DNA of 64,000 nt. Origin: Paracoccaceae bacterium. GTDB lineage: Bacteria > Pseudomonadota > Alphaproteobacteria > Rhodobacterales > Rhodobacteraceae. Position 1 is the stretch's first letter. Each line of letters begins with the position of its first letter. The stretch is from the NCBI GenBank assembly GCA_020425125.1, contig JAGQRV010000009.1:64248-128247 (forward strand), written 5' to 3'. Made by a program: the position numbers and the translations under genes. The notes beneath the pieces were generated by a model, which worked only from the letters and a program-made list of their open reading frames with translations, did not search any database and was not told the origin of the DNA. Shown in pieces: positions 3,262 through 63,416 of this stretch.

Positions 3262-3262
3262 C

Positions 3263-4474: not shown

Positions 4475-4533
4475 CGTCCACACCTCGGAAAGGGGCACCG
4501 TCGAGGTCGATACCGACCGTGCCGGAAACGGAT

Positions 4534-4557
4534 CGGCGCGCCGGGACCGGCGCGCCG
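4534..4557 (-). repeat. Perfect 11-bp stem-loop between bztA and bztB
   Basis: CGGCGCGCCGG (4534-4544) and CCGGCGCGCCG (4547-4557) are exact complements separated by GA. In the bzt transcript this folds just after the bztA stop codon. There is no U-run, so it looks less like a full terminator and more like an element that protects the bztA message from 3' decay or partly limits read-through, giving excess binding protein. Confidence 0.7.
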
Positions 4558-4571
4558 TGGTCTGATCGGGA

Positions 4572-5588
4572 TCAGCGGAACGGCGGCGAGTACTGGAGAC
4601 CGCCGTTGATCCAGAGCGCGTTCAGGCCACGCTCAATGTTCGCGGGCGTGCCTACGCCGATGGTTTCCGCGAAAATCTCGCCGTAATTCCCGTTGGCCGC
4701 GATCGCACGCTTGGCCCAGTCGGCGTCCAGACCCAGCATCCGGCCCAGATCGCCTTCGGTTCCGAGAAGACGACGAACTTCAGGGTTTTCGGACGAGCTC
4801 ATCTCGTCGATGTTCTTCTTGGTCACGCCATATTCTTCCGCGGCCACCAGCGCATTATAGGTCCAGCGCACGACGTCTGCCCATTCGTCGTCGCCCTGAC
4901 GCACGACGGGCCCCAGCGGCTCTTTCGAGATGATCTCGGGAAGGATGATGTAGTCCGCCGGGTTCGGATAGGTTCCGCGCTGGGTCGCGAGTTGAGACGC
5001 ATCCGTGGTGTAGGCGTCGCAGGCCCCGCCCAGGAACTGCTGGTCGGCTTCGGCCGGGGTCTGGATCGGCACCGGCTGATAGCTGATCCCCTGGGTCTTG
5101 AAGTAGTCGGCGAGGTTCAACTCGGTCGTTGTTCCGGTCTGGACGCATATCGTCGCGCCGTCGAGTTCCTTGGCCGAGGTCACGCCGAGATCCTTCCGCA
5201 CCATGAACCCCTGGCCATCGTAGTAATTGACGCCCGCGAAGGTGAATTTCAGGTCCACATCGCGGGTGAAGGTCCAGGTGGTGTTGCGCGGAAGAACGTC
5301 GATCTCGCCAGATGTCAGTGCGGTGAAGCGGGTCTCGCCAGTGGTCGGCACGAATTCGATCTTGTCCTGGTCTCCGAGGACCGCTGCCGCCACGGCCCGG
5401 CAGATCGCCACGTCGAAGCCTTGCCATCTCCCGCTGGAATCAGGGTAGGCGAATCCCGCGAACCCGGTATTGACACCGCATTTCAGGACATCGCGCCCCT
5501 TCACATCGCCAAGCGTTCCGGCTGTGGCGGCACCTGCTGCGAATGTGAGAAAGACGGCAGGTCCGATGAATGCTTTGATCTTGGTCAA
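4572..5588 (-). CDS. bztA: Polar amino-acid ABC transporter, periplasmic binding protein (BztA/AapJ type)
   Basis: The solute receptor that delivers polar amino acids to BztBCD. It has a clear Sec signal peptide (MTKIKAFIGPAVFLTFAAGAATA, cleaved after AGAATAG or nearby), then the family 3 binding-protein fold beginning GRDVLKCGVNTGFAGFAY. Ligand-lobe motifs such as GFDVAICRAVAAAVLG and LTSGEIDVL are present. At 338 residues it has the normal length. It is the first gene of the bzt operon and is followed by a strong stem-loop. AapJ/BztA is distinguished from shorter GlnH-type proteins by this length and by the partner permeases. Confidence 0.93.
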   Translation of the reverse strand: MTKIKAFIGPAVFLTFAAGAATAGTLGDVKGRDVLKCGVNTGFAGFAYPDSSGRWQGFDVAICRAVAAAVLGDQDKIEFVPTTGETRFTALTSGEIDVLPRNTTWTFTRDVDLKFTFAGVNYYDGQGFMVRKDLGVTSAKELDGATICVQTGTTTELNLADYFKTQGISYQPVPIQTPAEADQQFLGGACDAYTTDASQLATQRGTYPNPADYIILPEIISKEPLGPVVRQGDDEWADVVRWTYNALVAAEEYGVTKKNIDEMSSSENPEVRRLLGTEGDLGRMLGLDADWAKRAIAANGNYGEIFAETIGVGTPANIERGLNALWINGGLQYSPPFR

Positions 5589-5931
5589 CTCAGTTTACTC
5601 CTGCTGGTGGATATCACGCCCCGTTTCGTTGGGATGGCAGCAATTCTGGCGCCTGCCCTGCTGGGGCTTCAGGGGTCATTGCGACCCGGATACGAGAACC
5701 TTCCGAACTTCCCCGAGGTCCGTCAACTCTCCCGATGTTTTCGTTTCCCGCAATGCGGGAAAGAAGAGCACTCCTGCAATTTCGGGAGCGAGTCCCGCCA
5801 TGCTGAACCATGAATTAAGCGTAAAGTTTAGGCAAATCTTGCGGAGACACCACCCTTGAGTTTGTACGCCTGCGCGGAACCCGGGCAGTTTTAGAACTGC
5901 GCCAGCGCAATTCGGCCAGGTGTCCGGGCGG
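5589..5931 (-). promoter_or_regulatory. bzt operon upstream region with two inverted repeats
   Basis: No gene is seen in this stretch of about 340 bases. It should hold the bzt promoter, read on the minus strand. A perfect 8-bp dyad TTTCCCGC (5744-5751) / GCGGGAAA (5755-5762) with a 3-nt centre lies about 160 nt upstream of bztA. A second dyad CGGGA (5783-5787) / TCCCG (5793-5797) follows 20 nt further out. Either could be an operator or a leader hairpin. I could not pick out a convincing -35/-10 pair. Confidence 0.4.
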
Positions 5932-6279
5932 TCACTGGCTGCCGGTCTTAGATTGGAACCGGGCAATCAGGGCGTCGCAACTGGCGGCGCTTCCGGCCAG
6001 TTCCGAGACATCGGACGAGTCCGCGGACCCGGAAAGGTCTCTGGCGGCCCGTGCAAGCACCTGGTTCACCTGATCCGCGGTCAGGAGCCCTTCCTGCTGC
6101 GCGGCATGGACGACCGCACAGATGCCGGTGGCCAGCCCGGTTCCGGCGCCGACGCCGAGCAAGGCGCCCATACCGATCGACATCGCGACGAAGATTCCGA
6201 TCACCAGCCCCAGGATCAAGCCCAGCAGGCCCACTCCGACCTTGCCCAATTCAAATTCCTTCTTCGGCTGCGGTTTCAC
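5932..6279 (-). CDS. Small inner-membrane protein with glycine-rich helix, unknown function
   Basis: I do not recognise this 115-residue protein. A short charged N terminus is followed by a strongly hydrophobic, glycine-rich stretch of about 45 residues (residues 12-56, with repeated GxxxG spacing) that could form two close helices. A soluble, alanine- and serine-rich C terminus of about 60 residues follows (around GLLTADQVNQVLARAARDL). Its codon use matches its neighbours, which supports it being real. The GTG start at 6279 has no clear ribosome site; a TTG at 6249 preceded by AAGGA is an alternative and would begin just before the membrane stretch. Confidence 0.6.
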   Translation of the reverse strand: MKPQPKKEFELGKVGVGLLGLILGLVIGIFVAMSIGMGALLGVGAGTGLATGICAVVHAAQQEGLLTADQVNQVLARAARDLSGSADSSDVSELAGSAASCDALIARFQSKTGSQ

Positions 6280-6837: not shown

Positions 6838-7263
6838 TCACATGATGGTCATGGAGAGGGTGTAGTGGACCGTCTTGCGGGTATCGGCGTCATTTCCCAT
6901 GAGATAGACGCGGATCGTGTAATCCCCGGACTGTGGCAACTTGATCGATCCAAAATCGCCGCTTGTCGAGCCGTTGAAGATCGCCACGTTATCGCTTTCG
7001 GGAGGAAGGATATTGAAATAGATCGTGCCATCTCCGTCGGTGCTGTCGATGGCGATCGCGACCGACATCGTCTGGCCCTTCTGTGCGCCAAGCACGTAGT
7101 CGGCGTATTCCTTGCCGGTGATGGCCCCCCGTGCAGCACCGTTGTCGTTTCCGTGTTCGAAATGAATGGCGGTTCGTGATTGCGCGGCGACCGTGCCCGG
7201 GCTGACCGACACGGATGTCGCGGCGACCGCAAGAATCGCGAGAGCGCGCAGGTCTCCGATCAT
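6838..7263 (-). CDS. Secreted small beta-rich protein, unknown function
   Basis: A 141-residue exported protein. Residues 1-31 form a Sec signal peptide ending TVAAQ. The mature domain has motifs such as DYVLGAQKGQTMSVAI, YFNILPPES, VAIFNGSTSGDF and GDYTIRVYLMGNDA. These resemble a widespread small periplasmic family, some members of which are labelled g-type lysozyme inhibitor-like and others mislabelled 'DNA breaking-rejoining protein'. I recall the family by its motifs only, so a role in envelope protection is a guess. The start at 7263 has GGAGAGGAG just upstream. It is divergent from the first hsp20 gene. Confidence 0.65.
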   Translation of the reverse strand: MIGDLRALAILAVAATSVSVSPGTVAAQSRTAIHFEHGNDNGAARGAITGKEYADYVLGAQKGQTMSVAIAIDSTDGDGTIYFNILPPESDNVAIFNGSTSGDFGSIKLPQSGDYTIRVYLMGNDADTRKTVHYTLSMTIM

Positions 7264-7705
7264 TGATTTCTCCTCTCCGGCGACTCGGTCCTTTCCGATA
7301 TCTACCACATTGCTTTCCGGGAAAGCCTGGAACCTGGCGAAGGCAGACGACCGGAATGGAATCTGACGGCCGGACAGCAAGGGCGACGAGACAGACCAAT
7401 CCACCGGCGCCGAAATTTCGTCTGAGCGCGGCCCAGACCTCTTGAAGCGCGGGGTTCTCCCTCCTTCATTTGAAGTGGAACGCCCAATCGGGGTTTCGAC
7501 ATCGAGCGACGGGCCCGGCAAGAGGAAGCGGGCCAGAGACGGTTTGCCCAGTGCGGGAGCCGGTTTCAGCCGTCGCAAGTCCGGTATCGGCCGTATTCCT
7601 GCGGCACGGTTCCTGTTCGATCGTCTCCCGGCGGGCGCGCACGCGGCAGGTCAGGGCCAGATGGCCGGCTGCCGCGCGCAGGGCAACCGAGGAAGGAGAC
7701 GACAT
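7264..7705 (+). promoter_or_regulatory. Divergent intergenic region upstream of the hsp20 cluster; weak heat-shock promoter candidate
   Basis: About 440 bases with no gene I can support. CTTGAA at 7441-7446 matches the -35 element of RpoH (heat-shock sigma) promoters. The only -10 candidate, CCTTCATT at 7463-7470, is poor and the spacer is 16 nt. If it is used, the hsp20 leader would be about 230 nt, long enough to hold an RNA thermometer, although I did not find a convincing one. The first hsp20 gene has GGAAGGAG at 7691-7698. Confidence 0.3.
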
Positions 7706-8134
7706 ATGCATTATCCCAGCACCTATGGCAGGCGGGACCCCTTCGCGCTGATGCGGCGCATGATGGCGGATCTCGACACCGGGTTCGGCGTGCGTCCGGG
7801 CTCGGTGCAGTTCCCGGCAGTGAATGTCTGGCAGAACGCCGAGGCCGTGGCGGTCACCGCCGAGCTTCCGGGCGTCGAAGCCGACGAAATCGACATCACC
7901 GTGAAAGAGAATGTCCTGACGCTTTCAGGCGAACGGAAGGCACCCGAGGTTGCGGAGGGCAGCCGGTGGCACCGGCGTGAACGCGGCTACGGCAAGTTCT
8001 CGCGCGCGATCCGGCTTCCGTTCGAGGCCGATGCGGCGAAGGTCGAGGCCCGCTTCACCAATGGCATCCTTCATGTCGTCATCGGCCGGCCCGATGAGGA
8101 AAAGCCGCGCCGGATCGAGATCAAGGCCGCCTGA
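7706..8134 (+). CDS. Small heat-shock protein, Hsp20/alpha-crystallin family (first of three)
   Basis: A 142-residue ATP-independent holdase that binds unfolding proteins in the cytoplasm. The alpha-crystallin domain runs from about residue 40 (VNVWQNAEAVAVTAELPGVEADEIDI) to the end. It has the ELPGV and TLSGERKAP strand motifs and the conserved FTNGILHVVIGRPD segment (the GxL signature). The short N-terminal arm MHYPSTYGRRDPFALMRRMM is typical of class A-like bacterial sHsps. Start ATG 7706 follows GGAAGGAG. It is the first of three hsp20 genes in tandem, 14 nt before the next, and is likely heat induced. Confidence 0.92.
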   Translation: MHYPSTYGRRDPFALMRRMMADLDTGFGVRPGSVQFPAVNVWQNAEAVAVTAELPGVEADEIDITVKENVLTLSGERKAPEVAEGSRWHRRERGYGKFSRAIRLPFEADAAKVEARFTNGILHVVIGRPDEEKPRRIEIKAA

Positions 8135-8148
8135 ACGGAGGAGATGAG

Positions 8149-8547
8149 ATGAGCACCGAAGTAACGGAACAGCTTGGGCACGGTCGCGGCGATGCCCCCG
8201 AATCCACCCGGCACAGCCGCGTCTTCCGACCTCTCACCGACATTGTCGAAGGCAAGGCCGGGGTCTCGCTCATGCTCGAGATGCCGGGCGTCGCCTCCGA
8301 GGACGTGGACATCACCTTGGATAAGCGCGTGCTGACGATCCGGGGCCAGGTGGCGCCGACGCGGCCCGCGAACCTCGATCTCGCCTATTCGGAATACGGC
8401 GAAGGCGACTACGAGCGGGCGTTCACGATGTCCGAGGATTTCGATCCCGAGCGGATCGAGGCCGAGCTTCGAAATGGCGTGCTGACCGTGACCCTGCCGC
8501 GTGCGGAGGCTGCGCAGCCGAAGAAGATCTCGGTCAAGGTCGCCTGA
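8149..8547 (+). CDS. Small heat-shock protein, Hsp20 family (second of three)
   Basis: A 132-residue sHsp with the alpha-crystallin domain from about residue 25 (FRPLTDIVEGKAGVSLMLEMPGV). It shows the VLTIRGQVAP strand and the LRNGVLTVTLPRAEAAQPKKI C-terminal strand. The IxI-type tail is weak (KISVKVA). Family members with this sequence pattern co-assemble with a second sHsp. It follows the first hsp20 by 14 nt with GGAG before the start, so all three genes are probably one transcript. The three proteins differ enough to suggest heteromeric holdase complexes, not recent copies. Confidence 0.9.
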   Translation: MSTEVTEQLGHGRGDAPESTRHSRVFRPLTDIVEGKAGVSLMLEMPGVASEDVDITLDKRVLTIRGQVAPTRPANLDLAYSEYGEGDYERAFTMSEDFDPERIEAELRNGVLTVTLPRAEAAQPKKISVKVA

Positions 8548-8574
8548 GCAGTATCACGCGAAAGCGGAGGACAA

Positions 8575-9069
8575 ATGATGCAGATGAAGGACCTGATACC
8601 CTGGGCGCGGAAGGAACACGCGTCTGACATGAAGGACCAGGACGACAATCCGATCTCCGCGCTCCAGCGCGAGATGAACCGGACGTTCGACAATTTCTGG
8701 AACCGGTTCGGCTCGGTCGACTGGCCCTTCGCGGGCGGCGAAGTGCGGTCCGATGTGGTCGCGACCGATGATGCCGTCGAGGTGTCGGTTGAATTGCCGG
8801 GTCTCGAGATGAAGGATCTGGAAGTTTCGGTTTCCAATGACCTTCTGACCGTGAAGGGAGAGAAGAAGATCGAGCGTCAGGACGAGAAGAAAGGCTATTA
8901 CCTGTCCGAGCGCAGCTATGGATCGATCTACCGCACGATTCCGCTGCCTCCGGGCGCGGATGGCAGAAAGGCCGAAGCCAGCTTCAAGAACGGCGTCCTG
9001 ACCATCCGGCTACCGCACTCCCCGGAAGCGCAGGCCAATGTTCAGCGCATCGAGGTCAAGAGTTCCTGA
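8575..9069 (+). CDS. Small heat-shock protein, Hsp20 family (third of three)
   Basis: A 164-residue sHsp of the longer IbpA/HspC-like group. An N-terminal arm of about 55 residues (DLIPWARK, ISALQREMNRTFDNFWNRFG) precedes the alpha-crystallin domain (VVATDDAVEVSVELPGLEMKDLEVSV). The extended SERSYGSIYRTIPLPPGAD loop and the FKNGVLTIRLPHS strand follow. GGAGG at 8566-8570 fits ATG 8578 slightly better than ATG 8575; the two starts differ by one residue. It ends the hsp20 operon. The region after it contains the remains of a protease gene. Confidence 0.92.
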   Translation: MMQMKDLIPWARKEHASDMKDQDDNPISALQREMNRTFDNFWNRFGSVDWPFAGGEVRSDVVATDDAVEVSVELPGLEMKDLEVSVSNDLLTVKGEKKIERQDEKKGYYLSERSYGSIYRTIPLPPGADGRKAEASFKNGVLTIRLPHSPEAQANVQRIEVKSS

Positions 9070-54100: not shown

Positions 54101-54325
54101 GGGACCCCATCCTGTTGCGCGTTTTCTGCGAACCTAGCCCAGTCGGCAGCGATCTGGCGAGCCGCGCAGGCGGGCCTTCGCCCCGGATTCCGCCGCATCG
54201 GCGCCCGAATTTCGGGCAAATGGCGAAGTTTGTGCAAGATTTTCCCGCGGACTCCGACACGGAACCGCCCAAGGCGCGGCTGGGGACTTGGCCTGTGCCG
54301 GCTCCGGATGCTTGTCTGCGGCTAG
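54101..54325 (+). promoter_or_regulatory. Upstream control region of the guanidine operon; palindrome and sigma-54-like promoter
   Basis: A perfect 15-bp palindrome GCCCGAATTTCGGGC lies at 54203-54217. Four bases on, TGGCGAAGTTTGTGCA (54221-54236) has the GG-N10-GC spacing of a sigma-54 promoter, though the -12 side departs from TTGCA by an inserted T/G pattern. If active, transcription would start at about 54247, roughly 80 nt before the riboswitch. Nitrogen control would suit the genes. The call is tentative. Confidence 0.35.
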
Positions 54326-54436
54326 CAGGGTACTTAGGGTTCCGCTCGCATCCGGCGAGGCCAGGTCCGAGAAGTGCCGCCAGGGTGGCAAATTCCACCT
54401 TGGTACACGGCGGGCCAAAATCCCGGGAGAGTACTG
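54326..54436 (+). promoter_or_regulatory. Guanidine-I riboswitch (ykkC)
   Basis: The conserved blocks of the guanidine-I aptamer occur in order: TTAGGGTTCCG (54334-54344), a short hairpin CTCGC/GCGAG, GGTCCGAGAAG (54364-54374), a hairpin GGTGG/CCACC (54385-54399), TACACGGCGGG (54404-54414) and CAAAATCCCGGGAGAG (54416-54431). The outer helix pairs GTACTT (54330-54335) with GAGTAC (54429-54434). Ligand is free guanidinium; this class normally switches genes on. It precedes a guanidine/urea-type importer and a guanidine-hydrolase-like enzyme, the gene set expected for it. Confidence 0.92.
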
Positions 54437-54498
54437 CGCCGGTCCATCCGCGCCACTTTCCTTGTTCCGCCCGCGGACCGGCGCCAGATCACGGGCGG
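54436..54498 (+). promoter_or_regulatory. Candidate riboswitch expression platform: two competing hairpins
   Basis: Hairpin A pairs GCGCCGGTCC (54436-54445) with GGACCGGCGC (54475-54484), a perfect 10-bp stem starting right after the aptamer. Hairpin B pairs CCGCCCG (54467-54473) with CGGGCGG (54492-54498), ending shortly before the ribosome site GGGGAG (54508-54513). The two cannot both form fully, because B's 5' arm ends next to A's 3' arm and its loop contains it. There is no U-run. Translational or Rho-type control is possible. Confidence 0.45.
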
Positions 54499-54520
54499 GA
54501 CGCGAATGGGGAGCCGAGAC

Positions 54521-55594
54521 ATGCTCAGAACCACCCTTTCCCTTTCCGCCCTCGCGATGGTGGCCGTACTCGGGCCGACCGCGCCGCCAGCCGCCGCGGA
54601 AGAGAAGACAGACTTCCGGGTCGCCTGGTCGATCTATGCCGGATGGATGCCCTGGGGCTACCTGCAAGAGAGCGGCATCATGGACAAGTGGGCCGAGAAA
54701 TACGGCATCCATGTCGAGATCGTGCAGATCAACGACTACGTCGAATCGATCAACCAGTACACGGCCGGCTCCTTTGACGGGGTGTCGGCGACCAACATGG
54801 ACACGCTGTCCATCCCCGCCGGAAGCGGCGTGGACACCACCGCGCTGATCGTCGGCGATTACTCCAACGGCAACGACGCGATCATCATCAAAGGCGACGG
54901 CGATCTGGCCAGCATCAAGGGCAGGCGGGTCAACCTCTTGGAACTCTCGGTGTCGCATTACCTGCTCGCCCGCGCGCTCGACACGGTCGGTCTGACCGAA
55001 TCGGATCTCGGCGGGGTGACGAACACGTCGGATGCCGACATGGTCGCCGCCTTCCAGACGCCCGATGTGGAAGCGGTCGTGACCTGGAACCCGCTGGTCT
55101 CCACCATCATGGAGGATCCGATCGCCAACGAGGTTTTCGATTCCTCGGACATCCCGGGCGAGATCATCGATCTGATGGTGGTCAACACCGAAACGCTCGC
55201 CGACAACCCGGCCTTCGGCAAGGCGCTGGTCGGCGCCTGGTACGAGGTGATGGGGCTGATGTCATCGGACACGGCCGACGGCATCGCCGCGCGGACCGCG
55301 ATGGCCGAGGCCTCGGGTACGGACCTGCCGGGCTACGACGCACAACTCTCGACCACGGCCATGTTCTACACGCCGGACGCCGCGGTCAGTTTCACCGAAA
55401 GCCCGGATCTGCCCCAGACGATGACCAACGTGGCGGGTTTCCTGTTCGACAAGGGCATCCTGGGGACCGGCGCGCCGAGCCCGGATTTTGTCGGCATCGA
55501 ATATCCCGGCGGGCTCGTCACCGGGGACCCGAACAACATCCGGTTCCGCTACGATACGACCTACATGCAGATGGCCGCCGACGGCGCGCTCTGA
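54521..55594 (+). CDS. Guanidine (or urea) ABC transporter, periplasmic binding protein
   Basis: A 357-residue exported binding protein of the NMT1/SsuA-like fold. The signal peptide (residues 1-28) ends PPAAAEE. The opening FRVAWSIYAGWMPWGYLQESGIMDKWAEKYGI and YTAGSFDGVSATNMD are characteristic of the family often labelled 'putative urea ABC transporter' next to urea-carboxylase genes. Given the guanidine-I riboswitch directly upstream and the guanidine-hydrolase-like enzyme downstream, guanidinium is the likely ligand. ATG 54521 follows GGGGAG by 7 nt; ATG 54506 is a less good start. A stem-loop follows the gene. Confidence 0.87.
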   Translation: MLRTTLSLSALAMVAVLGPTAPPAAAEEKTDFRVAWSIYAGWMPWGYLQESGIMDKWAEKYGIHVEIVQINDYVESINQYTAGSFDGVSATNMDTLSIPAGSGVDTTALIVGDYSNGNDAIIIKGDGDLASIKGRRVNLLELSVSHYLLARALDTVGLTESDLGGVTNTSDADMVAAFQTPDVEAVVTWNPLVSTIMEDPIANEVFDSSDIPGEIIDLMVVNTETLADNPAFGKALVGAWYEVMGLMSSDTADGIAARTAMAEASGTDLPGYDAQLSTTAMFYTPDAAVSFTESPDLPQTMTNVAGFLFDKGILGTGAPSPDFVGIEYPGGLVTGDPNNIRFRYDTTYMQMAADGAL

Positions 55595-55607
55595 CGCAAC
55601 CGGCAAG

Positions 55608-55628
55608 GGCTCCGTCCAGCGCGGAGCC
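55608..55628 (+). repeat. Stem-loop after the guanidine binding-protein gene
   Basis: GGCTCCG (55608-55614) pairs exactly with CGGAGCC (55622-55628) around a 7-nt loop, starting 14 nt after the binding-protein stop codon and before the permease gene. No U-run is present. Confidence 0.5.
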
Positions 55629-55656
55629 TGAACGCAACCCCGCCCAGACAGTGCCC

Positions 55657-56469
55657 ATGCGCCTCATCAACCGCACTCCGAGTCCCGCGCTGCGCGCCTT
55701 TCTGGTGCTGGTGCCCTTCGCGCTGGCTTTTGTGGTCTACCTCGTCGCGTCGGAGATACGGCTCGAAGCCAACCCCTCCGACCGGCTGCTGCCATCGCCC
55801 GGCACCATCCTCGACACCGCGGTATCGCTTCTGACCGTGCCTGACCGGCGCTCCGGCGCAATCCTGTTCTGGGGCGACACATGGGCGAGCCTGACCCGCC
55901 TGAGCCTCGGCGTCGGACTGGCCGCCGCGATCGGGCTGGTCTTTGGCATGCTGATCGGCCTTCTGCCCCATGTCCGCGCGACGCTGTCGATCTTCGTCGG
56001 CGTCCTGTCGCTGATCCCGCCGCTGGCGCTGCTGCCGATCCTCTTCATCACGTTCGGCCTGGGCGAGGTGTCGAAGGTCGTGCTGATCGTCATCGGGATC
56101 ACACCCTTTCTGATCCGCGACCTGTCGGGACGGGTGATGGAGATCCCGCGGGAGATGATCGTGAAGGCCGAAACCCTGGGCGCCTCCAGCCTCGTCATCG
56201 CGTTGCGGGTGGCCCTGCCGCAGGTGCTGCCGCGTCTCGTCCAGGCGATCCGGCTGTCGCTGGGACCCGCCTGGCTGTTCCTGATCGCGGCCGAGGCCAT
56301 CGCCGCCAACCAGGGCCTCGGCTACCGCATCTTCCTCGTTCGCCGCTATCTCGCGATGGACGTGATCCTGACCTATGTGCTCTGGATCACCTTCCTTGCG
56401 TGGGTGATCGACTGGCTTCTCAAGGCCGTTGCCCGGCGCGCCTTTCCCTGGACGGAGGTCAGCCCGTGA
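55657..56469 (+). CDS. Guanidine (or urea) ABC transporter, permease
   Basis: A 270-residue permease of the SsuC/TauC class with six hydrophobic segments. The coupling loop is IPREMIVKAETLGASSLVIALRVALPQVLPRLVQAIRL. The AAEAIAANQGLGYRIFLVRRYLAMDVILTYVLWI ending is typical of the urea/guanidine branch. ATG 55657 is taken as the start; GTG 55651 is in frame two codons earlier, and neither has a strong ribosome site. The stop overlaps the GTG start of the ATPase gene. Confidence 0.87.
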   Translation: MRLINRTPSPALRAFLVLVPFALAFVVYLVASEIRLEANPSDRLLPSPGTILDTAVSLLTVPDRRSGAILFWGDTWASLTRLSLGVGLAAAIGLVFGMLIGLLPHVRATLSIFVGVLSLIPPLALLPILFITFGLGEVSKVVLIVIGITPFLIRDLSGRVMEIPREMIVKAETLGASSLVIALRVALPQVLPRLVQAIRLSLGPAWLFLIAAEAIAANQGLGYRIFLVRRYLAMDVILTYVLWITFLAWVIDWLLKAVARRAFPWTEVSP

Positions 56470-57233
56470 GCTTCGTCGAGGTCGAGAACGTCTTCCAGAG
56501 CTACGGGGCGCGGCCGATCCTGGAACGGGTCAACGTCACCGTGAATCGAGGCGAGTTCATCTCCATCGTCGGCGCCTCGGGTTGTGGCAAGTCCACCTTC
56601 CTGCGTCTTCTTCTGGCGCAGGAGCAGCCCACACGGGGCAGCATCACCATCGATGGCCGGCCGCCCGCGCAGGAGCCCGACCGCACGCGCGGTGTCGTCT
56701 TCCAGCGCTATTCCGTCTTCCCGCACATGAATGTGCGCGACAACATCGTTGCGGGCGAGGCCTTCGCACGATCCTTCGGCCGTCTTTTCGGCTCGGAGCG
56801 CCGCGCTGCGCAGGAGCGCGCCGACGCGATGCTGGAACGGATCGGCCTGAACCATGTGGCGGATGCCTATCCCGCCACGCTGTCAGGGGGCATGCAGCAG
56901 CGGCTTGCGATCGGGCAGGCACTCGCGGCCAAGCCGCTGATCCTGCTTCTCGACGAGCCCTTCGGCGCGCTCGATCCCGGCACGCGCCTGTCGATGCACG
57001 ATTTCCTGATGCATCTGCGCGGCGAGATCGGCATGACGGTGTTCATGGTCACCCATGACCTCTCCGAAGGGTTCAAGCTGGGCGACCGGGTGCTGGTCTT
57101 CGACAAGCCACGCTGGGATCCGACCGATCCCGATGCGTATGGTGCCACAGTCACCTACGATTTCGACGCAAGGAACCGGGGCATCCCGTTCCAGACCATC
57201 ATGGAGGAAACCCATGTTCTTCGCCCCGTCTGA
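56466..57233 (+). CDS. Guanidine (or urea) ABC transporter, ATPase
   Basis: A 255-residue ATPase of the SsuB/TauB class with Walker A GASGCGKST at residues 36-44, signature LSGGMQQRLAIGQAL, Walker B ILLLDEPFGALDP and switch His in MVTHDLSEGF. A C-terminal stretch (VTYDFDARNRGIPFQTIMEETHV) is specific to this branch. GTG 56466 overlaps the permease stop. The following hydrolase gene starts 20 nt before this gene ends, so importer and enzyme are translationally coupled. Confidence 0.88.
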   Translation: MSFVEVENVFQSYGARPILERVNVTVNRGEFISIVGASGCGKSTFLRLLLAQEQPTRGSITIDGRPPAQEPDRTRGVVFQRYSVFPHMNVRDNIVAGEAFARSFGRLFGSERRAAQERADAMLERIGLNHVADAYPATLSGGMQQRLAIGQALAAKPLILLLDEPFGALDPGTRLSMHDFLMHLRGEIGMTVFMVTHDLSEGFKLGDRVLVFDKPRWDPTDPDAYGATVTYDFDARNRGIPFQTIMEETHVLRPV

Positions 57234-58458
57234 GCGCACGCGGTCGCACCACCCGGCGGATGCCCGCCGCCACGGAATGCGTGCACATCACCCGGATCTG
57301 ACCAAACTTGCCGGCTGGCGCGCGATGAAGGCGGAGGCGGAGCTGCCCGGCAACCGTTGGGACGAGGAGCGCCGCTGGGCGCTCCGCATGGGTCTGACTG
57401 GGGCGGATTCGATCAAAGACAAGTCGATCCCCACCTTCGCGCGGGGGGAATTGCCGCATTACGCCGGAATCAACACCTTCCTGAAGGCCCCCTATGCCGA
57501 GGACGTTCTGGAGGTCGCACATTACGACGCCACCGTGCTGGGCATCCCTTTCGACGGCGGCACGACCTATCGCCCCGGCACCCGGTTCGGCCCGCAGGGC
57601 GTGCGCAAGATCTCGGCACTCTACACGCCCTACAATTACGAGATGGGGATCGACCTGCGCGAACAGATGACGCTCTGCGATGCCGGCGACGTGTTCACCA
57701 TCCCCGCCAATATCGAGAAGAGTTTCGACCAGATCAGCCGGGCGGTCAGCCACGTCTTCAGCTCGGGCAGCCTGCCGATCATGATCGGGGGCGACCATTC
57801 CATCGGCTTTCCCTGTCTGCGGGGAATCGCCGAGTGCACGTCGAAGAAGATCGGCATCGTGCATTTCGACCGCCATGCCGACATCCAGGAAAAGGACCTG
57901 GACGAGCGGATGCACACCACGCCCTGGTTCCACGCCACCAACATGCCAAACGTGCCCGCGAAGAACCTGGTTCAGGTGGGAATCGGCGGATGGCAGGTCC
58001 CGCGCGAGGCGGTGAAGGTGGCGCGGGAACGCGAGACCAACATCATCACCATGGGCGACATGGAGAAGATGGGCATCGACAGGACCGCCGAAATGGCGCT
58101 GGAGATGGCCTGGGACGGCGTCGACATGGTCTACATCTCGTTCGACATCGATTCGATCGATTGCGGCTTCGTCCCGGGCACCGGCTGGCCCGAGCCCGGC
58201 GGCTTCCTGCCGCGCGAAGCACTTGCGCTGGCGTCGAAAGTCGCCGCCGAGGGCATCTGCGGGATGGAACTGGTCGAGGTCAGCCCGCCCTACGATACAT
58301 CCGACATCACGGCGCTGATGGGAACGCGGGTGATCGTGGACGTGCTCGGCTCGCTCGTCGCATCCGGCAAGCTCGGCGCGCACAAGTCGCATATCGACAA
58401 GCCGAAGTCCTTCCCGCACGGCGATTTCGAAGGCAGGAGGTGGTCCAATGCCACATGA
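57214..58458 (+). CDS. gdmH: Guanidine hydrolase (Ni-dependent, arginase/ureohydrolase fold)
   Basis: A 414-residue ureohydrolase-fold enzyme that would split guanidinium into urea and ammonia. Metal-ligand motifs are GGDHS (His195), DRHAD (Asp219, His221, Asp223) and SFDIDSID (Asp311, Asp313). The DRHxD form, in place of DAHxD of agmatinases and arginases, together with DLDERMHTTPWFHATNMPN, QVGIGGWQVPRE, FVPGTGWPEPGGFLPREAL and MELVEVSPPYDTSDIT closely follows the cyanobacterial guanidine hydrolase Sll1077 as I remember it. Many databases still call such proteins agmatinase. GGAGG sits 6 nt before ATG 57214. The riboswitch and importer support guanidine as substrate. The metal is inferred. 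Confidence 0.85.
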   Translation: MFFAPSERTRSHHPADARRHGMRAHHPDLTKLAGWRAMKAEAELPGNRWDEERRWALRMGLTGADSIKDKSIPTFARGELPHYAGINTFLKAPYAEDVLEVAHYDATVLGIPFDGGTTYRPGTRFGPQGVRKISALYTPYNYEMGIDLREQMTLCDAGDVFTIPANIEKSFDQISRAVSHVFSSGSLPIMIGGDHSIGFPCLRGIAECTSKKIGIVHFDRHADIQEKDLDERMHTTPWFHATNMPNVPAKNLVQVGIGGWQVPREAVKVARERETNIITMGDMEKMGIDRTAEMALEMAWDGVDMVYISFDIDSIDCGFVPGTGWPEPGGFLPREALALASKVAAEGICGMELVEVSPPYDTSDITALMGTRVIVDVLGSLVASGKLGAHKSHIDKPKSFPHGDFEGRRWSNAT

Positions 58459-58918
58459 CCATCCGCACCGGTCGGGGCCGTCCCGCGATCACCGGCAAGA
58501 CCATGCCCACCCCCACGGCCCCGGTCACAACCACGCTCAGCCCGGTCACCTGCACAGTCATCTCGCCCCGGAAGACGAGGCGGCCGAGCTTCAGATCCTG
58601 ACCGCACAATTCATCGACGGCTTCGTCCAAGCCTCTGACAAGACCGCCTATCTGCGGCTGTCCGGCGTACCGTTCGAGCGTCCCGGCAAGGGAGGCGCAA
58701 CCGCGCTCAAGCTGGTGGACGTGAGTCTTTCGACCGACTGGCAGGTCGGCACCGCGGCACCATCATTCGGCTCGCGCGAACTGAGTTACCTGCCATTTCC
58801 CGGATCGATGGTCCGAGAGCGCACGAACATGGCATTGATCTATGTCTCGATGGATGAGAAATCGCTGCTGGATATTCGAAGTTTTCTGAAGGCCCGGCTG
58901 GGCGGGACCGAAATCTGA
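58448..58918 (+). CDS. His-rich protein of unknown function, putative metal-delivery partner of guanidine hydrolase
   Basis: A 156-residue protein I do not recognise. The first 38 residues contain 12 histidines in HxH and HxHxH patterns (His3, 5, 7, 15, 19, 21, 23, 27, 29, 34, 36, 38), a typical nickel/zinc-binding tail as in HypB, UreE or SlyD. Residues 42-156 form a separate compact domain (ELQILTAQFIDGFVQASDK, then YLRLSGVPFERPG ... DVSLSTDWQVGTAAPSF) without a P-loop, so it is not a HypB-type GTPase. GGAGGTGG precedes ATG 58448. It overlaps gdmH by 11 nt. A nickel chaperone or storage role for GdmH is an inference from tail and position. Confidence 0.75.
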   Translation: MPHDHPHRSGPSRDHRQDHAHPHGPGHNHAQPGHLHSHLAPEDEAAELQILTAQFIDGFVQASDKTAYLRLSGVPFERPGKGGATALKLVDVSLSTDWQVGTAAPSFGSRELSYLPFPGSMVRERTNMALIYVSMDEKSLLDIRSFLKARLGGTEI

Positions 58919-58969: not shown

Positions 58970-59120
58970 CAATAATCTGATATTGTTAATTGGTTTCAAG
59001 AAGCCTCTCTCGACACCCTGGCTGTCCGGGCAACGGCTTAGCACGTCAACGGATCCGAGATTTGCATCCGGCGCGAAATTCGGCCACGATCCCGTGACGT
59101 TGCCGCGCCGGACGCCGCCG

Positions 59121-60086
59121 ATGAACAAGCAGAAACTGCCAGACGTGGAGTCCACCCCGCTTGACGAGGCGGCGCGTGCCGGATGGCTCTACTACGTCGG
59201 CCAGAAGACACAGGACCAGATCGCGCGGGAGATGGGGATCTCGCGCCAGCGCGCGCAGCGTCTGGTGTCAAAGGCAATAGCCGAGCGACTGATCCGGGTT
59301 CGCCTCGACCACCGGCTTTCGACCTGTCTGGCGCTGGAGGCCGCGCTCACCGAGCGGTTCGACCTGCGGATGGCCCGAGTTGCGCCGTCGCTCGGTCCCG
59401 GGGTCGATCCTGTCCGCAGCGTCGCGCCGATGGCATCGGCAGAGCTGGAACGGATCCTGGCCACGCCGAACCCCCTCGTCATAGCGATGGGGACAGGGCG
59501 GATGCTGCGCGCCTCGATCGAGGAATTGCCCCAGATGGAATGCCCGCAGCACAAGATCGTCTCGCTGATCGGAAACATCGCACCTGATGGGTCGGCCTCG
59601 TTCTTCGACGTCATCATGCGGGTCGCCGACAAGACGCATGCGCCGCACTTCCCCATGCCCCTTCCCGTGATTGCGGCCACTACCGAAGAGCGGGATCTGT
59701 TTCATTCGCTAGCCCCGATCCGACGCGCGCGCGACCTTGCCAGCCGGGCAGACGTGACCTTCGTCGGGGTGGGACAGATGAGCGATACTGCGCCGCTCTA
59801 TATCGACGGATTCCTCGCCTACGACGATCTGCGCGCCCTGCAGGCGGCCGGTGCGGTCGGCGAGATGGTGGGCTGGCCTTTCGACGCCGAGGGCCGATAC
59901 ATCGATCTCGGTTCGGATTTCTGCGTCGCGGGGGTTCGGGTGACGCCGTCGGATGACACCCTGACCATAGCTGTGGCCGCCGGTCCGGCCAAGATCGCGG
60001 CAATCCGCGGTGCCCTTCGCGGCCGCCTGGCGAGCGCCCTGATCACCGACGAAAGCACGGCAAGCGCCCTGCTTTCGCTCTCGTGA
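59121..60086 (+). CDS. SorC-family sugar-binding transcriptional regulator of the polyol operon
   Basis: A 321-residue SorC/DeoR-like regulator. The N-terminal HTH spans residues 10-60 (DEAARAGWLYYVGQKTQDQIAREMGISRQRAQRLVSKAIAERLI). The effector domain from residue 65 has SorC motifs such as VIAMGTGRMLRASIEEL, KIVSLIGNIAPDGSASFFDVIMRVAD and DVTFVGVGQM. It is 107 nt upstream of an smo-type polyol transporter in the same direction, and three TGAG-type dyads lie between them, so it likely controls that operon. The start at 59121 has no strong ribosome site; longer upstream readings are not convincing. Confidence 0.88.
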   Translation: MNKQKLPDVESTPLDEAARAGWLYYVGQKTQDQIAREMGISRQRAQRLVSKAIAERLIRVRLDHRLSTCLALEAALTERFDLRMARVAPSLGPGVDPVRSVAPMASAELERILATPNPLVIAMGTGRMLRASIEELPQMECPQHKIVSLIGNIAPDGSASFFDVIMRVADKTHAPHFPMPLPVIAATTEERDLFHSLAPIRRARDLASRADVTFVGVGQMSDTAPLYIDGFLAYDDLRALQAAGAVGEMVGWPFDAEGRYIDLGSDFCVAGVRVTPSDDTLTIAVAAGPAKIAAIRGALRGRLASALITDESTASALLSLS

Positions 60087-60116
60087 GCACTCCGGGGGCA
60101 GACGCGCCAAAATTTT

Positions 60117-60175
60117 GAGTTGACTCCTTTAGCGTTATCATTGAGCATATGCTCATGGCTTGAGTAATTTCTCAA
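60117..60175 (+). promoter_or_regulatory. smo promoter region with three TGAG-type inverted repeats
   Basis: Three dyads share GAG/CTC arms: GAGT-TG-ACTC (60117-60126), the perfect palindrome TGAGCATATGCTCA (60142-60155), and TTGAG-N6-CTCAA (60160-60175). Centre-to-centre distances are about 27 and 19 nt. TTGACT (60120-60125) may be a -35 box, with GCATAT inside the middle palindrome as a weak -10. The set is a good candidate for the binding sites of the SorC regulator just upstream. Confidence 0.6.
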
Positions 60176-60193
60176 ACCAAAGGGAGGATACAC

Positions 60194-61513
60194 ATGACAC
60201 TACGCGCTCAGGCGCTGTGGGGGGCGTGCGCCATTGCCGCCCTCTCGACTGCCGCTGCCGCCGAAACAACCATCACCATCGCGACCGTGAACAACGGCGA
60301 CATGGTCCGGATGCAGGGCCTGTCCGACGAGTTCACCAAGGCGCATCCCGACATCAAGCTGGAATGGGTGACGCTGGAAGAGAACATCCTGCGCCAGCGG
60401 GTCACCACGGACATCGCCACGAAAGGCGGCCAGTACGACGTGATGACGATCGGCACCTACGAGGTTCCGATCTGGGCCAAGCAGAACTGGCTGGCACCGC
60501 TGACCGATGTGCCGGCGGATTACGATGTCGACGACCTGCTGCCTTCGATCCGCTCGGCGCTGTCCGTCGACGGCACGCTGTACGCGGCACCGTTCTACGG
60601 TGAATCCGCGATGGTGATGTATCGCAAGGACCTGGCAGACAAGGCCGGCGTCACGATTCCGGATCAGCCGAAATGGGACGACATCATGGCCGCCGCCAAG
60701 GCCATGACCGACAAGGGCAACGAGATCTACGGCATCTGCCTGCGCGGCAAGCCGGGCTGGGGCGAGAACATGGCCTTCATCACGGCGATGGCCAACAGCT
60801 ATGGCGCGCGCTGGTTCGACATGGACTGGAAGGCGCAGTTCGACAGCCCCGAATGGAAGGCCGCGCTCGACGACTACCTGTCGATGATGAACGAATACGG
60901 CCCGCCGGGCGCCTCGTCGAACGGCTTCAACGAAAACCTCTCGCTGTTCCAGACCGGAAAATGCGGCATGTGGATTGACGCCACGGTCGCCGGGTCGTTC
61001 GTGACCGACCCCGACAACTCGACCGTTGCCGACAGCGTCGCCTTCGCCCAGTTCCCGACGAAGGGCGACCTCGAAAACCATGGCAACTGGCTGTGGGCGT
61101 GGAGCCTCGCGATCCCGGCAACGACCGATGCGCCGGATGCCGCCAAGACCTTCGTTACCTGGGCGACCAGCAAGGCGTATACGGAACTCGTCGCGGAGAA
61201 GGACGGCTGGCGTGCCGCACCTCCGGGCACGCGGACCTCGCTCTATGAAAACCCGGACTATCAGGCCGCGGCCCCGTTCGCTGAAATGACCCTGAAATCG
61301 ATGAACGCGGCCACCCCGGATCATCCCTCGGTGCAGGAGACGCCCTACACCGGCGGTCAGTTCGTCGCGATCCCCGAGTTCCAGGGCATCGGCACCGCGG
61401 TTGGCCAGCAGTTCTCGGCGGCCCTAGCCGGTCAGGTCACGGCCGATCAGGCATTGTCCTCGGCGCAGTCCCTGACCGATCGCGAAATGAAGCGCGCCGG
61501 TTACCCCAAGTAA
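60194..61513 (+). CDS. smoE: Polyol (sorbitol/mannitol) ABC transporter, binding protein (SmoE type)
   Basis: A 439-residue family 1 periplasmic binding protein with signal peptide (MTLRAQALWGACAIAALSTAAAAE). Motifs TITIATVNNGDMVRMQGLSDEFTKAHPDIKLEWVTLEENILRQRVTTDIATKGGQYDVMTIGTYE split over the first lobe, and ALSVDGTLYAAPFYGESAMVMYRKDL, are characteristic of the SmoE/MtlE polyol receptors of Rhodobacter and Pseudomonas. GGGAGG precedes ATG 60194. It heads smoEFGK and is followed by an 11-bp stem-loop. Confidence 0.9.
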   Translation: MTLRAQALWGACAIAALSTAAAAETTITIATVNNGDMVRMQGLSDEFTKAHPDIKLEWVTLEENILRQRVTTDIATKGGQYDVMTIGTYEVPIWAKQNWLAPLTDVPADYDVDDLLPSIRSALSVDGTLYAAPFYGESAMVMYRKDLADKAGVTIPDQPKWDDIMAAAKAMTDKGNEIYGICLRGKPGWGENMAFITAMANSYGARWFDMDWKAQFDSPEWKAALDDYLSMMNEYGPPGASSNGFNENLSLFQTGKCGMWIDATVAGSFVTDPDNSTVADSVAFAQFPTKGDLENHGNWLWAWSLAIPATTDAPDAAKTFVTWATSKAYTELVAEKDGWRAAPPGTRTSLYENPDYQAAAPFAEMTLKSMNAATPDHPSVQETPYTGGQFVAIPEFQGIGTAVGQQFSAALAGQVTADQALSSAQSLTDREMKRAGYPK

Positions 61514-61527
61514 GCGTTCCTCCCGAA

Positions 61528-61555
61528 GGGGCCGGCGCCTGAGTGCGCCGGCCCC
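61528..61555 (+). repeat. Perfect 11-bp stem-loop between smoE and smoF
   Basis: GGGGCCGGCGC (61528-61538) and GCGCCGGCCCC (61545-61555) are exact complements around a 6-nt loop, starting 14 nt after the smoE stop. No U-run follows. It has the same position and style as the hairpins in the bzt, chv/ggu, dpp and guanidine operons. Confidence 0.7.
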
Positions 61556-61585
61556 CCGGTCCAGCCGAAAGACCCGGAGGCCCCC

Positions 61586-62458
61586 ATGGCTACCCAGCAT
61601 TCCCGTGCCGCGGCGCGGTTCATGATCTCGCCTGCCGTGATCCTACTCCTGGGATGGATGCTCATCCCGCTGATCATGACGCTGTGGTTCTCGTTCCAGC
61701 GCTACAACCTTCTGATGCCGGGACAAGGCGGCTTCGTGGGCTGGGAGAACTACTACTTCTTCTTCACCGATCCCGCCTTCGTCAGCGCAATCGTCAATAC
61801 GTTGATGCTGGTGCTGGGCGTGCTGATCATCACAGTCGTCGGTGGCATCCTGCTGGCGATCCTTCTGGACCAGCCGATGTGGGGGCAGGGGATCGTGCGG
61901 ATCCTCGTCATCGCGCCCTTCTTCGTGATGCCCACGGTCTCGGCGCTGGTCTGGAAGAACATGTTCTTCAACCCGGTGAACGGGCTCTTCGCACATCTCT
62001 TCAAGGCGATCGGGCTGCAACCGTTCGACTTCCTGGCACAGGCACCGCTCGCCTCGATCATCTGCATCGTCGCCTGGGGCTGGCTGCCCTTCGCCACGCT
62101 GATCCTTCTGACCGCGATGCAGTCGCTCGACAGCGAGCAACTCGAGGCGGCCGAGATGGACGGCGCGAGCGCGTTGGCGAAGTTCTTCTACATCGTGCTG
62201 CCGCACCTGTCGCGGGCGATCACCGTGGTGATCCTGATCCAGACGATCTTCCTGCTGTCGGTCTTCGCCGAAATCCTCGTGACCACTTCGGGCGGCCCGG
62301 GCGATGCGTCGACCAACCTGACCTACCTCATCTACAAGCAGAGTCTGCTGCAGTACGATGTCGGTCTCGGCTCTGCCGGTGGCGTGATCGCAATCATCCT
62401 TGCCAACATCGTGGCCATCTTCCTGATGCGCATGATCGGCAAGAACCTGGATATCTGA
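61586..62458 (+). CDS. smoF: Polyol ABC transporter permease (SmoF type)
   Basis: A 290-residue CUT1 permease (MalF-like) with six helices. The opening ARFMISPAVILLLGWMLIPLIMTLWFSFQRYNL and the coupling loop LEAAEMDGASALAKFFYIVLPHLSRA (EAA motif) are typical. It pairs with the next permease. It lies 72 nt after smoE, the gap containing the stem-loop. Confidence 0.92.
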   Translation: MATQHSRAAARFMISPAVILLLGWMLIPLIMTLWFSFQRYNLLMPGQGGFVGWENYYFFFTDPAFVSAIVNTLMLVLGVLIITVVGGILLAILLDQPMWGQGIVRILVIAPFFVMPTVSALVWKNMFFNPVNGLFAHLFKAIGLQPFDFLAQAPLASIICIVAWGWLPFATLILLTAMQSLDSEQLEAAEMDGASALAKFFYIVLPHLSRAITVVILIQTIFLLSVFAEILVTTSGGPGDASTNLTYLIYKQSLLQYDVGLGSAGGVIAIILANIVAIFLMRMIGKNLDI

Positions 62459-62460
62459 TC

Positions 62461-62586
62461 ATGACCCAAGTGCAGCCGATCCCCGCCCCGAACCCGCATG
62501 GCGCGCCACTGGCACCGGCATCACAACAGGCCCGCAGCCGGTTGTGCGCGTCCCACGGCACGTCCTGTCCCGAAGGAGCCTCATGA
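62461..62586 (+). other. Short open frame between smoF and smoG, doubtful coding
   Basis: ATG 62461, two bases after the smoF stop, opens 41 codons rich in proline and alanine (starting MTQVQPIPAPNPHG) that end exactly over the smoG start codons (TGA at 62584-62586). It could be a small coupling peptide, a remnant of a longer smoG N terminus in another frame, or chance. No ribosome site other than that expected from coupling is seen. Confidence 0.25.
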
Positions 62587-63416
62587 TGGCCCGTGCAGTC
62601 ACCAACCAACGCAAGTCGATCAATACGCTCATTGCGTGGGCGATCGGGTTCCTGATCTTCTTCCCGATCCTCTGGACGATCCTGACCAGCTTCAAGACCG
62701 AGGCCGAGGCCATCGCCTCACCCCCCTCGTTCCTCTTCTTCCACTGGAACCTCGACGCCTACCATGAGGTGCAGGAACGGTCGAACTACTTCCTGCACTT
62801 CTGGAACTCGGTGGTGATCTCGCTGGGATCCACGCTCGTCGGCCTCGCCATCGCGATCCCGGCAGCCTGGTCGATGGCCTTCGTTCCGGCGAAGCGGACC
62901 AAGGACGTCCTGATGTGGATGCTGTCGACCAAGATGCTGCCGCCGGTCGGCGTCCTGATCCCGATCTACCTGATCTTCCGGGACACCGGCCTTCTGGACA
63001 CTCGGATCGGTCTGGTGATCGTGATGACGCTGATCAACCTGCCGATCATCATCTGGATGCTGTTCACCTATTTCCGCGAGATTCCGGGCGAAATCCTGGA
63101 AGCCGCGCGGATGGACGGCGCCACGCTGCGCGACGAGATCATCCACGTCCTCACGCCGATGGCGGTCCCCGGCATTGCCTCGACCCTGCTGCTCAACGTC
63201 ATTCTTTCCTGGAACGAGGCGTTCTGGACCCTGAACTTGACCGCAGCCAAGGCGGCCCCCCTGACCGCCTTCATCGCCAGCTATTCCAGCCCCGAAGGCC
63301 TCTTCTACGCCAAGCTCTCGGCGGCATCCACGATGGCAATCGCACCGATCCTGATCCTTGGCTGGTTCAGCCAGAAGCAACTCGTCCGCGGCCTGACCTT
63401 CGGCGCGGTGAAGTGA
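62583..63416 (+). CDS. smoG: Polyol ABC transporter permease (SmoG type)
   Basis: A 277-residue CUT1 permease (MalG-like) with six helices. Motifs are LIFFPILWTILTSFKTEAEAIASPP near the start and the coupling loop ILEAARMDGATLRDEIIHVLTPMAVPGIAST. AAGGAG lies 5-8 nt before the paired ATG codons 62583 and 62586; the second gives the MARAV start usual in the family. It is 9 nt before the ATPase gene and forms the channel with SmoF. Confidence 0.92.
   Translation: MMARAVTNQRKSINTLIAWAIGFLIFFPILWTILTSFKTEAEAIASPPSFLFFHWNLDAYHEVQERSNYFLHFWNSVVISLGSTLVGLAIAIPAAWSMAFVPAKRTKDVLMWMLSTKMLPPVGVLIPIYLIFRDTGLLDTRIGLVIVMTLINLPIIIWMLFTYFREIPGEILEAARMDGATLRDEIIHVLTPMAVPGIASTLLLNVILSWNEAFWTLNLTAAKAAPLTAFIASYSSPEGLFYAKLSAASTMAIAPILILGWFSQKQLVRGLTFGAVK

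Follow-up and report, generated by a model that had tools for sequence, protein, structure and literature searches.

The locus described here raises the question of how a guanidine hydrolase that is probably a nickel enzyme is supplied with its metal. We analyzed a stretch of 64,000 nucleotides (nt) from a Paracoccaceae bacterium (contig JAGQRV010000009.1), hereafter the window, in which a guanidine-I riboswitch aptamer is followed by five tightly packed genes on the forward strand. They encode the binding protein, permease and ATPase of an ATP-binding cassette (ABC) importer, an arginase-fold enzyme and a histidine-rich (His-rich) protein (Table 1). A gap of 62 nt follows the binding-protein gene, and the subsequent genes overlap by 4, 20 and 11 nt. 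A sequence-only reading of the same DNA had delimited this operon at 54326-58918, which is correct within a few bases, and had described its genes correctly; it listed the His-rich protein without assigning it a role. The core of the operon is of a known kind and the novelty lies in this last gene. In the genomes that we sampled, the His-rich family is in near one-to-one partnership with the guanidine hydrolase GdmH. We consider it likely that the whole locus is a guanidine-induced nitrogen-scavenging operon that includes a dedicated nickel-loading partner of the hydrolase.

A His-rich protein encoded next to the guanidine hydrolase

We searched 385 genomes of the window's class, counting GdmH at E <= 1e-90 and using the His-rich protein of the window (P0005) as the query for its family. 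The His-rich protein had a match in 14 genomes and GdmH in 11, and in all 11 GdmH genomes, including that of the window, the His-rich gene immediately follows GdmH and the order of the five genes is the same. Fisher's exact test on these counts (11/0/3/371) returned a P-value of 6e-19, which treats the genomes as independent, although this is not quite true. The weakest member in this draw (G107, E 1.4e-6) is near the limit of a search with a single sequence, which could miss further members. Two His-rich matches without GdmH (L033 in genome G125 and L037 in genome G365) look like broken leftovers, and a third match (L016 in G281, E 4.2e-4), still counted among the 14, looks spurious. In L037 (12018-12935) the riboswitch aptamer, a fragment of the binding protein (residues 29-150) and the His-rich core are joined, with permease, ATPase and GdmH missing, and the His cluster is C-terminal instead; this arrangement is an internal deletion or an assembly join.

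The same association was found in 398 genomes drawn from the phylum, where all seven GdmH genomes, each from the window's class, have a His-rich match downstream. Overall, the two draws contain 16 distinct GdmH genomes (two occur in both), and 16 out of 16 have the His-rich partner downstream. An eighth match in the phylum draw (L148 in G594, 8272-8361) is a 30-residue C-terminal remnant in a genome of the same family without GdmH, apparently the trace of a lost operon.

We also collected named relatives, keeping the best 80 of 215 loci, which by their titles are mostly from marine Rhodobacteraceae. In 79 of these 80 loci the His-rich gene is preceded on its own strand by GdmH, at a distance of -7 to 440 nt (median 18). 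In the exception (L099) the contig starts 47 bases before the match, and GdmH could not show. The binding-protein, permease and ATPase genes were found nearby in 76, 77 and 78 of the 80 loci, respectively, once permease matches below 40% and ATPase matches below 45% identity are dropped. GdmH was further found on 11 plasmids, and all seven alphaproteobacterial ones carry a His-rich member downstream. Members on Sinorhizobium plasmids are approximately 31% identical to P0005, and four out of five were missed by the plasmid-wide P0005 search, which returned three records as compared to 11 with the GdmH search. The apparent absence from these plasmids was rejected upon inspection, when the distant member proved to be present. 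In two annotated plasmid records the His-rich protein is annotated as hypothetical.

Binding proteins of the importer family, TIGR03427, score above the cut-off in 30 of the 385 class genomes, 11 of which are the GdmH genomes, and the His-rich protein was not found in the 19 that have TIGR03427 without GdmH. In the locus L145 (genome G460, 6856-8843, reverse strand), the aptamer is immediately followed by GdmH and the His-rich gene. No ABC genes were found across this 16 kb stretch, so that another importer must serve, or none. Since it was not found in the 19 importer-only genomes and is kept in L145, the His-rich gene tracks the enzyme and not the importer. No ABC genes were found across the 14 kb stretch of L066 either.

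The His-rich protein matches nothing in Pfam (E <= 0.1) or in NCBIfam (E <= 0.01), and neither a HypA domain nor a HypB GTPase domain was recognized in it. When 81 members were scanned against the families, only weak matches were returned, with none to HypA or HypB among the families listed; a single member matches a UreE model, and this only at E 0.87, which does not make the family UreE. Over the 81 members, the N-terminal tail has a mean length of 34 residues and is 43% His (6 to 26 His), as compared to 1% in the core, and the motif MPHD is found near the start in 79. The ratio of nonsynonymous to synonymous substitution rates (dN/dS) ranges from 0.03 to 0.17 over eleven orthologue pairs, which points to purifying selection on the gene.

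An AlphaFold2 model built from the 81 sequences (mean predicted local distance difference test score, pLDDT, 75.8; predicted template modelling score, pTM, 0.59) has a confident core at residues 41-156 and a disordered His-rich tail at residues 1-40. The predicted core is composed of helices (41-61, 65-71, 109-114 and 143-151) and strands (77-80, 83-100, 122-133 and 138-142). Within it, the stretch 101-120 is of low confidence (block means 53 and 55) and holds five of the seven residues that are invariant in an 83-row alignment (G101, P105, Y114, P116 and P118). Foldseek returned no match for the core in PDB at E <= 0.001; a COMM domain fold (best Foldseek E 0.23) and a sequence-profile relative in PDB (best E 0.05) were not accepted.

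From these features and from the genomic partnership we infer that the His-rich protein binds nickel and acts as the dedicated nickel-loading partner of the guanidinase. In the proposed mechanism, guanidinium would bind the aptamer and switch the operon on, the ABC importer would bring guanidinium into the cell, and the nickel-dependent hydrolase would convert guanidine to urea and ammonia, with a urease encoded elsewhere completing the breakdown of urea. The His-rich tail would collect and buffer Ni2+, and the conserved folded core would dock on the hydrolase and hand over the metal, possibly through the conserved loop at residues 101-121 or so, whose predicted structure is of low confidence. 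The His-rich protein would stand in, without a GTPase, for the HypA/HypB-like pair GhaA/GhaB of cyanobacteria. We see about even chances that the family is a novel class of nickel inserter dedicated to a single client: a small protein, GTPase-free and of unrecognized fold, that evolved with the alphaproteobacterial guanidinase and makes HypA/HypB unnecessary.

A disordered tail so rich in His would equally suit a protein that only stores, buffers or detoxifies nickel, and that neither docks on the hydrolase nor activates it. This is unlikely, however, as the folded core is better conserved than the tail and persists in L012, which has lost nearly all of its tail. Moreover, the family occurs in only 14 of the 385 class genomes and tracks GdmH, which speaks against mere storage but is not decisive, as nickel use across the 385 was not surveyed.

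Other possible sources of nickel

Nickel may instead reach GdmH through the urease accessory proteins or through HypA/HypB, leaving the His-rich protein with another task, such as the assembly or stabilization of the GdmH hexamer. The genome of the window encodes urease alpha away from the operon (C95), as do all 15 other GdmH genomes examined, so that urease is present in 16 out of 16. The same genome has hypA and hypB (C79), beside hydrogenase-like frames that we take to encode [NiFe] hydrogenase subunits. Against loading by these proteins, HypA (PF01155) was undetected in 10 of the 15 GdmH genomes other than that of the window, all of them at least 93% complete; HypB was not searched genome-wide. 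In addition, a pure assembly factor is not expected to have a His-rich tail. We therefore regard this explanation as distinctly improbable.

No hypA gene was found near the operon in any of 105 loci with the window's own hypA and hypB as queries (E 1e-5), from which GhaA/GhaB are perhaps too distant. For hypB, one weak match was returned, in L031 (29% identity), which is probably UreG because it adjoins a urease gene; the presence of HypA/HypB near the operon was thus rejected. As GhaA/GhaB may lie beyond the reach of the queries, we place more weight on the order of the five genes. The region of L031 just upstream of the guanidine operon (2719-6206) contains a urease alpha match, an overlapping match to the ureB-associated small RNA family and the weak UreG-like match.

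Several observations weigh against a dedicated nickel-loading partner. The 80 named loci are best matches, and hence biased to close relatives. At four actinobacterial GdmH plasmid loci no His-rich member was found within approximately 7 kb at E 1e-3, with the proteins of both the window and Sinorhizobium as queries. The tail of L012 is reduced to a single His, and a His-rich tail is thus not strictly needed. Nickel could come from the urease accessory proteins, since all GdmH genomes tested encode urease. HypA was detected in 5 of the 15 GdmH genomes and in that of the window, so that HypA/HypB could contribute there; for the 10 without a hit, the sensitivity of PF01155 to GhaA was not checked. 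Published work adds to these points, since the guanidinase of Nitrospira inopinata is reported to be active without known chaperones (PMC11410670), and coexpression of MetAB is reported to give no rise in metformin hydrolase activity in extracts (PMC11271267).

The literature also describes GdmH of Synechocystis and metformin hydrolase as nickel enzymes associated with HypA/HypB-like nickel chaperones (PMC11399263, PMC11271267), and a metAB knockout as unable to grow on metformin (PMC11271267). As reported in these two sources, the importance of chaperone coexpression in the recombinant assay is a matter of disagreement (PMC11399263, PMC11271267). For the N. inopinata enzyme, the mechanism of nickel loading is called unclear (PMC11410670).

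The hydrolase, the importer and the riboswitch

The best relatives of the enzyme in PDB are 7esr/7oi1 (560 bits) and 9fek (542 bits), and the next protein scores 177 bits (phmmer). These entries carry the label 'agmatinase 2' in the PDB copy; partly from residue offsets, we take them to be the guanidinases of Synechocystis and N. inopinata, respectively. Residues reported as important for guanidine are Thr97 and Trp305 in the former and Thr105, His222, Trp313 and Glu344 in the latter (PMC11410670). Mapped by hand through the PDB alignments (offset 2 throughout, for either enzyme), they fall on T118, H234, W325 and E355 of the window enzyme, which are unchanged in 101, 101, 100 and 101 of 101 sequences (100 relatives and the window). 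The ligand-like residues H195, D219, H221 and D223 are also kept in the relatives. The sole exception at the four reported positions is a Thr in place of W325 in Embleya (L126, near 7001-8071), whose GdmH-like protein has PGTGTP and may act on another substrate.

The identification of the enzyme as a guanidine hydrolase of the GdmH/Sll1077 type, which the sequence-only reading had proposed, is supported by its grouping by score with the presumed guanidinases and by the presence of the four reported residues. Its nickel content and activity would follow those of this type. Database names usually read agmatinase, which is explained by its score against the NCBIfam agmatinase equivalog model, just below the cut-off (169.4 versus 174.3 bits). 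That it is in fact an agmatinase, or another guanidino-acid hydrolase, is nevertheless barely credible given the gap between 542 and 177 bits in the PDB scores, the guanidine specificity residues and the position of the gene under guanidine-I control. The motif comparison with the nearest paralogue in the same genome (L149, 34% identity) also contributed to the rejection of this reading, as the paralogue has GTQWRAG and PGTGTP as compared to GTTYRPG and PGTGWP in the enzyme.

The binding protein belongs to TIGR03427, 'putative urea ABC transporter substrate-binding protein' (531.8 bits, cut-off 333.9), a name that was presumably coined from neighbourhoods of urea carboxylase, now read as guanidine carboxylase. 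From its context, it is plausible that the importer carries guanidinium. If the family name were taken literally, the importer would be a true urea transporter that recovers urea beside the hydrolase, with guanidine entering otherwise, and the GdmH operon L145, which shows no ABC genes, would fit this picture. We consider it very unlikely, as the binding protein is encoded by the first gene behind the guanidine aptamer and has many conserved carboxylates, which suit a cation and are not diagnostic. In addition, ABC importers at Synechocystis and Pseudomonas loci are described as guanidine importers (PMC12186494, PMC11410670). On two Rubrobacter plasmids the place of the ABC importer after GdmH is taken by a sodium:solute symporter gene (L122, 6986-9774) and by an annotated L-lactate permease (L123, 7013-9865), which are possible alternative guanidine carriers.

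The aptamer lies at 54323-54431 on the forward strand and matches the Rfam covariance model RF00442 with 81.7 bits (gathering cut-off 63, E 5.4e-13) over model positions 1-107, with no non-standard pairs marked. The guanidine-I identity given in the sequence-only reading is therefore correct at the level of the model, and the RNA would respond to guanidinium. It is the only Rfam match at gathering thresholds within the window and the single guanidine-I match in the whole genome (4.0 Mb, 109 contigs). The pattern of conserved aptamer blocks precedes the operon in 76 of the 80 named relatives and in 90 of all 105 loci, as compared to no match in 574 kb of shuffled sequence. It is absent from L066, L086, L097 and L099, of which the last two are incomplete sequences. 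Among the loci of the class draw, the aptamer of L030 scores below the threshold (41.1 bits), no aptamer was found in L031 and L038, and L034 begins too near the gene to judge.

A hairpin of GTTCCGCC and GGCGGAAC (often GGCGGGAC) recurs between the aptamer and the start codon in the leaders of relatives. Both arms, with at most one mismatch each, are present in 66 of 91 leaders and in only 2 of 1,820 shuffled leaders. The 5' arm repeats GTTCCG of the aptamer, so that the 3' arm could pair with either copy. A pattern scan of the window leader found no T-tailed terminator between aptamer and start codon, and TTTT occurs in 21 of 75 relatives' leaders. An intrinsic terminator was therefore rejected as the output of the riboswitch, and the recurrent hairpin suggests a non-terminator expression platform. 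Competition between the pairings may control translation or Rho-dependent termination. A single-strand fold of the entire leader disagreed with the structure of the aptamer and was not used. Within the longest frame of the binding protein (54506-55594), the ATG at 54521, which GGGGAG precedes by seven bases, is the more probable start, because in several relatives the tblastn match sets in at residue 6.

Table 1. Positions of the leader hairpin and of the five genes in the window
Feature	Position	Strand	Details
Hairpin 5' arm, GTTCCGCCCG	54464..54473	+	After the aptamer; part of the probable expression platform
Hairpin 3' arm, CGGGCGGGAC	54492..54501	+	Just 5' of GGGGAG (54508-54513), the probable ribosome-binding site
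ABC substrate-binding protein	54506..55594, likely start 54521	+	TIGR03427; probable guanidinium binder
ABC permease	55657..56469	+	PF00528, E 4.1e-17
ABC ATPase, GTG start	56466..57233	+	PF00005, E 3.2e-35
Guanidine hydrolase, GdmH/Sll1077 type (supported)	57214..58458	+	414 amino acids; GDHS at 193, DRHAD at 219
His-rich protein	58448..58918	+	156 amino acids; 12 His among the first 40 residues

Divergent from the operon lies a gene of the acetamidase/formamidase family (PF03069; 53156-54100, reverse strand). Relatives of this gene occur in only 2 of the 105 loci, and it was rejected as a part of the unit; formamidase and urease genes are also found near GdmH in Rubrobacter indicoceani (L122). 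Downstream, at 58983-63416 on the forward strand, a SorC-type regulator (PF04198) is followed by an apparent sugar-type ABC binding protein and two permeases, the latter three recognized by eye. In L124 and L065, too, the guanidine operon is followed by this regulator, at approximately 60% identity.

Relation to known guanidine and nickel systems

The riboswitch match, the scores and residues of the enzyme and the urease elsewhere in the genome all favour the earlier view of the locus as a nitrogen-scavenging unit. The arrangement is not unusual, since a guanidine-I riboswitch with GdmH and an ABC importer was already known from Synechocystis (PMC8390497, PMC12186494). In Synechocystis sp. PCC 6803, sll1077-sll1082 encode GdmH, GhaA, GhaB and an ABC importer under guanidine-I control (PMC8390497, PMC12186494, PMC10094980). 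The two systems share the aptamer class, the enzyme family, the ABC importer and a urease encoded elsewhere (PMC8390497, PMC12186494, PMC10094980, PMC11410670), whereas in the window the importer genes come first, there is no hypA/hypB-like gene among the five, and the His-rich protein follows the enzyme.

Comammox Nitrospira also combines a guanidine-I aptamer with a guanidinase, and nickel chaperones are reported to be absent nearby. Its locus differs in having an APC permease instead of an ABC importer, and the portion of the source available to us mentions no His-rich partner (PMC11410670). Guanidine carboxylase operons under guanidine-I or guanidine-II control resemble that of the window in their riboswitch control and ABC guanidine importer (PMC12186494), and differ in following an ATP-dependent carboxylation route in place of GdmH. 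The metformin hydrolase operons of Aminobacter and Pseudomonas likewise contain a nickel ureohydrolase together with an accessory metal-loading unit (PMC11399263). They differ in using hypA/hypB and in having a heteromeric enzyme with another substrate.

With its His-rich and probably disordered metal-binding tail, the protein of the window resembles HypB, UreE with His-rich ends and the Hpn-like proteins of Helicobacter. HypB, for instance, has been called naturally His-rich (PMC11399263). Unlike in these proteins, however, the core of the window protein matches no family searched. No description of a His-rich guanidinase partner turned up among the papers listed in our literature searches, although an earlier mention in Funck 2022 or Nelson 2017 is possible.

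Nickel guanidinases are a recent discovery. A conserved single candidate gene within the operon offers a testable answer to how they are loaded with nickel where HypA/HypB are missing. If this is true, it would give a role to a protein that is annotated as hypothetical and whose family is found at 215 loci.

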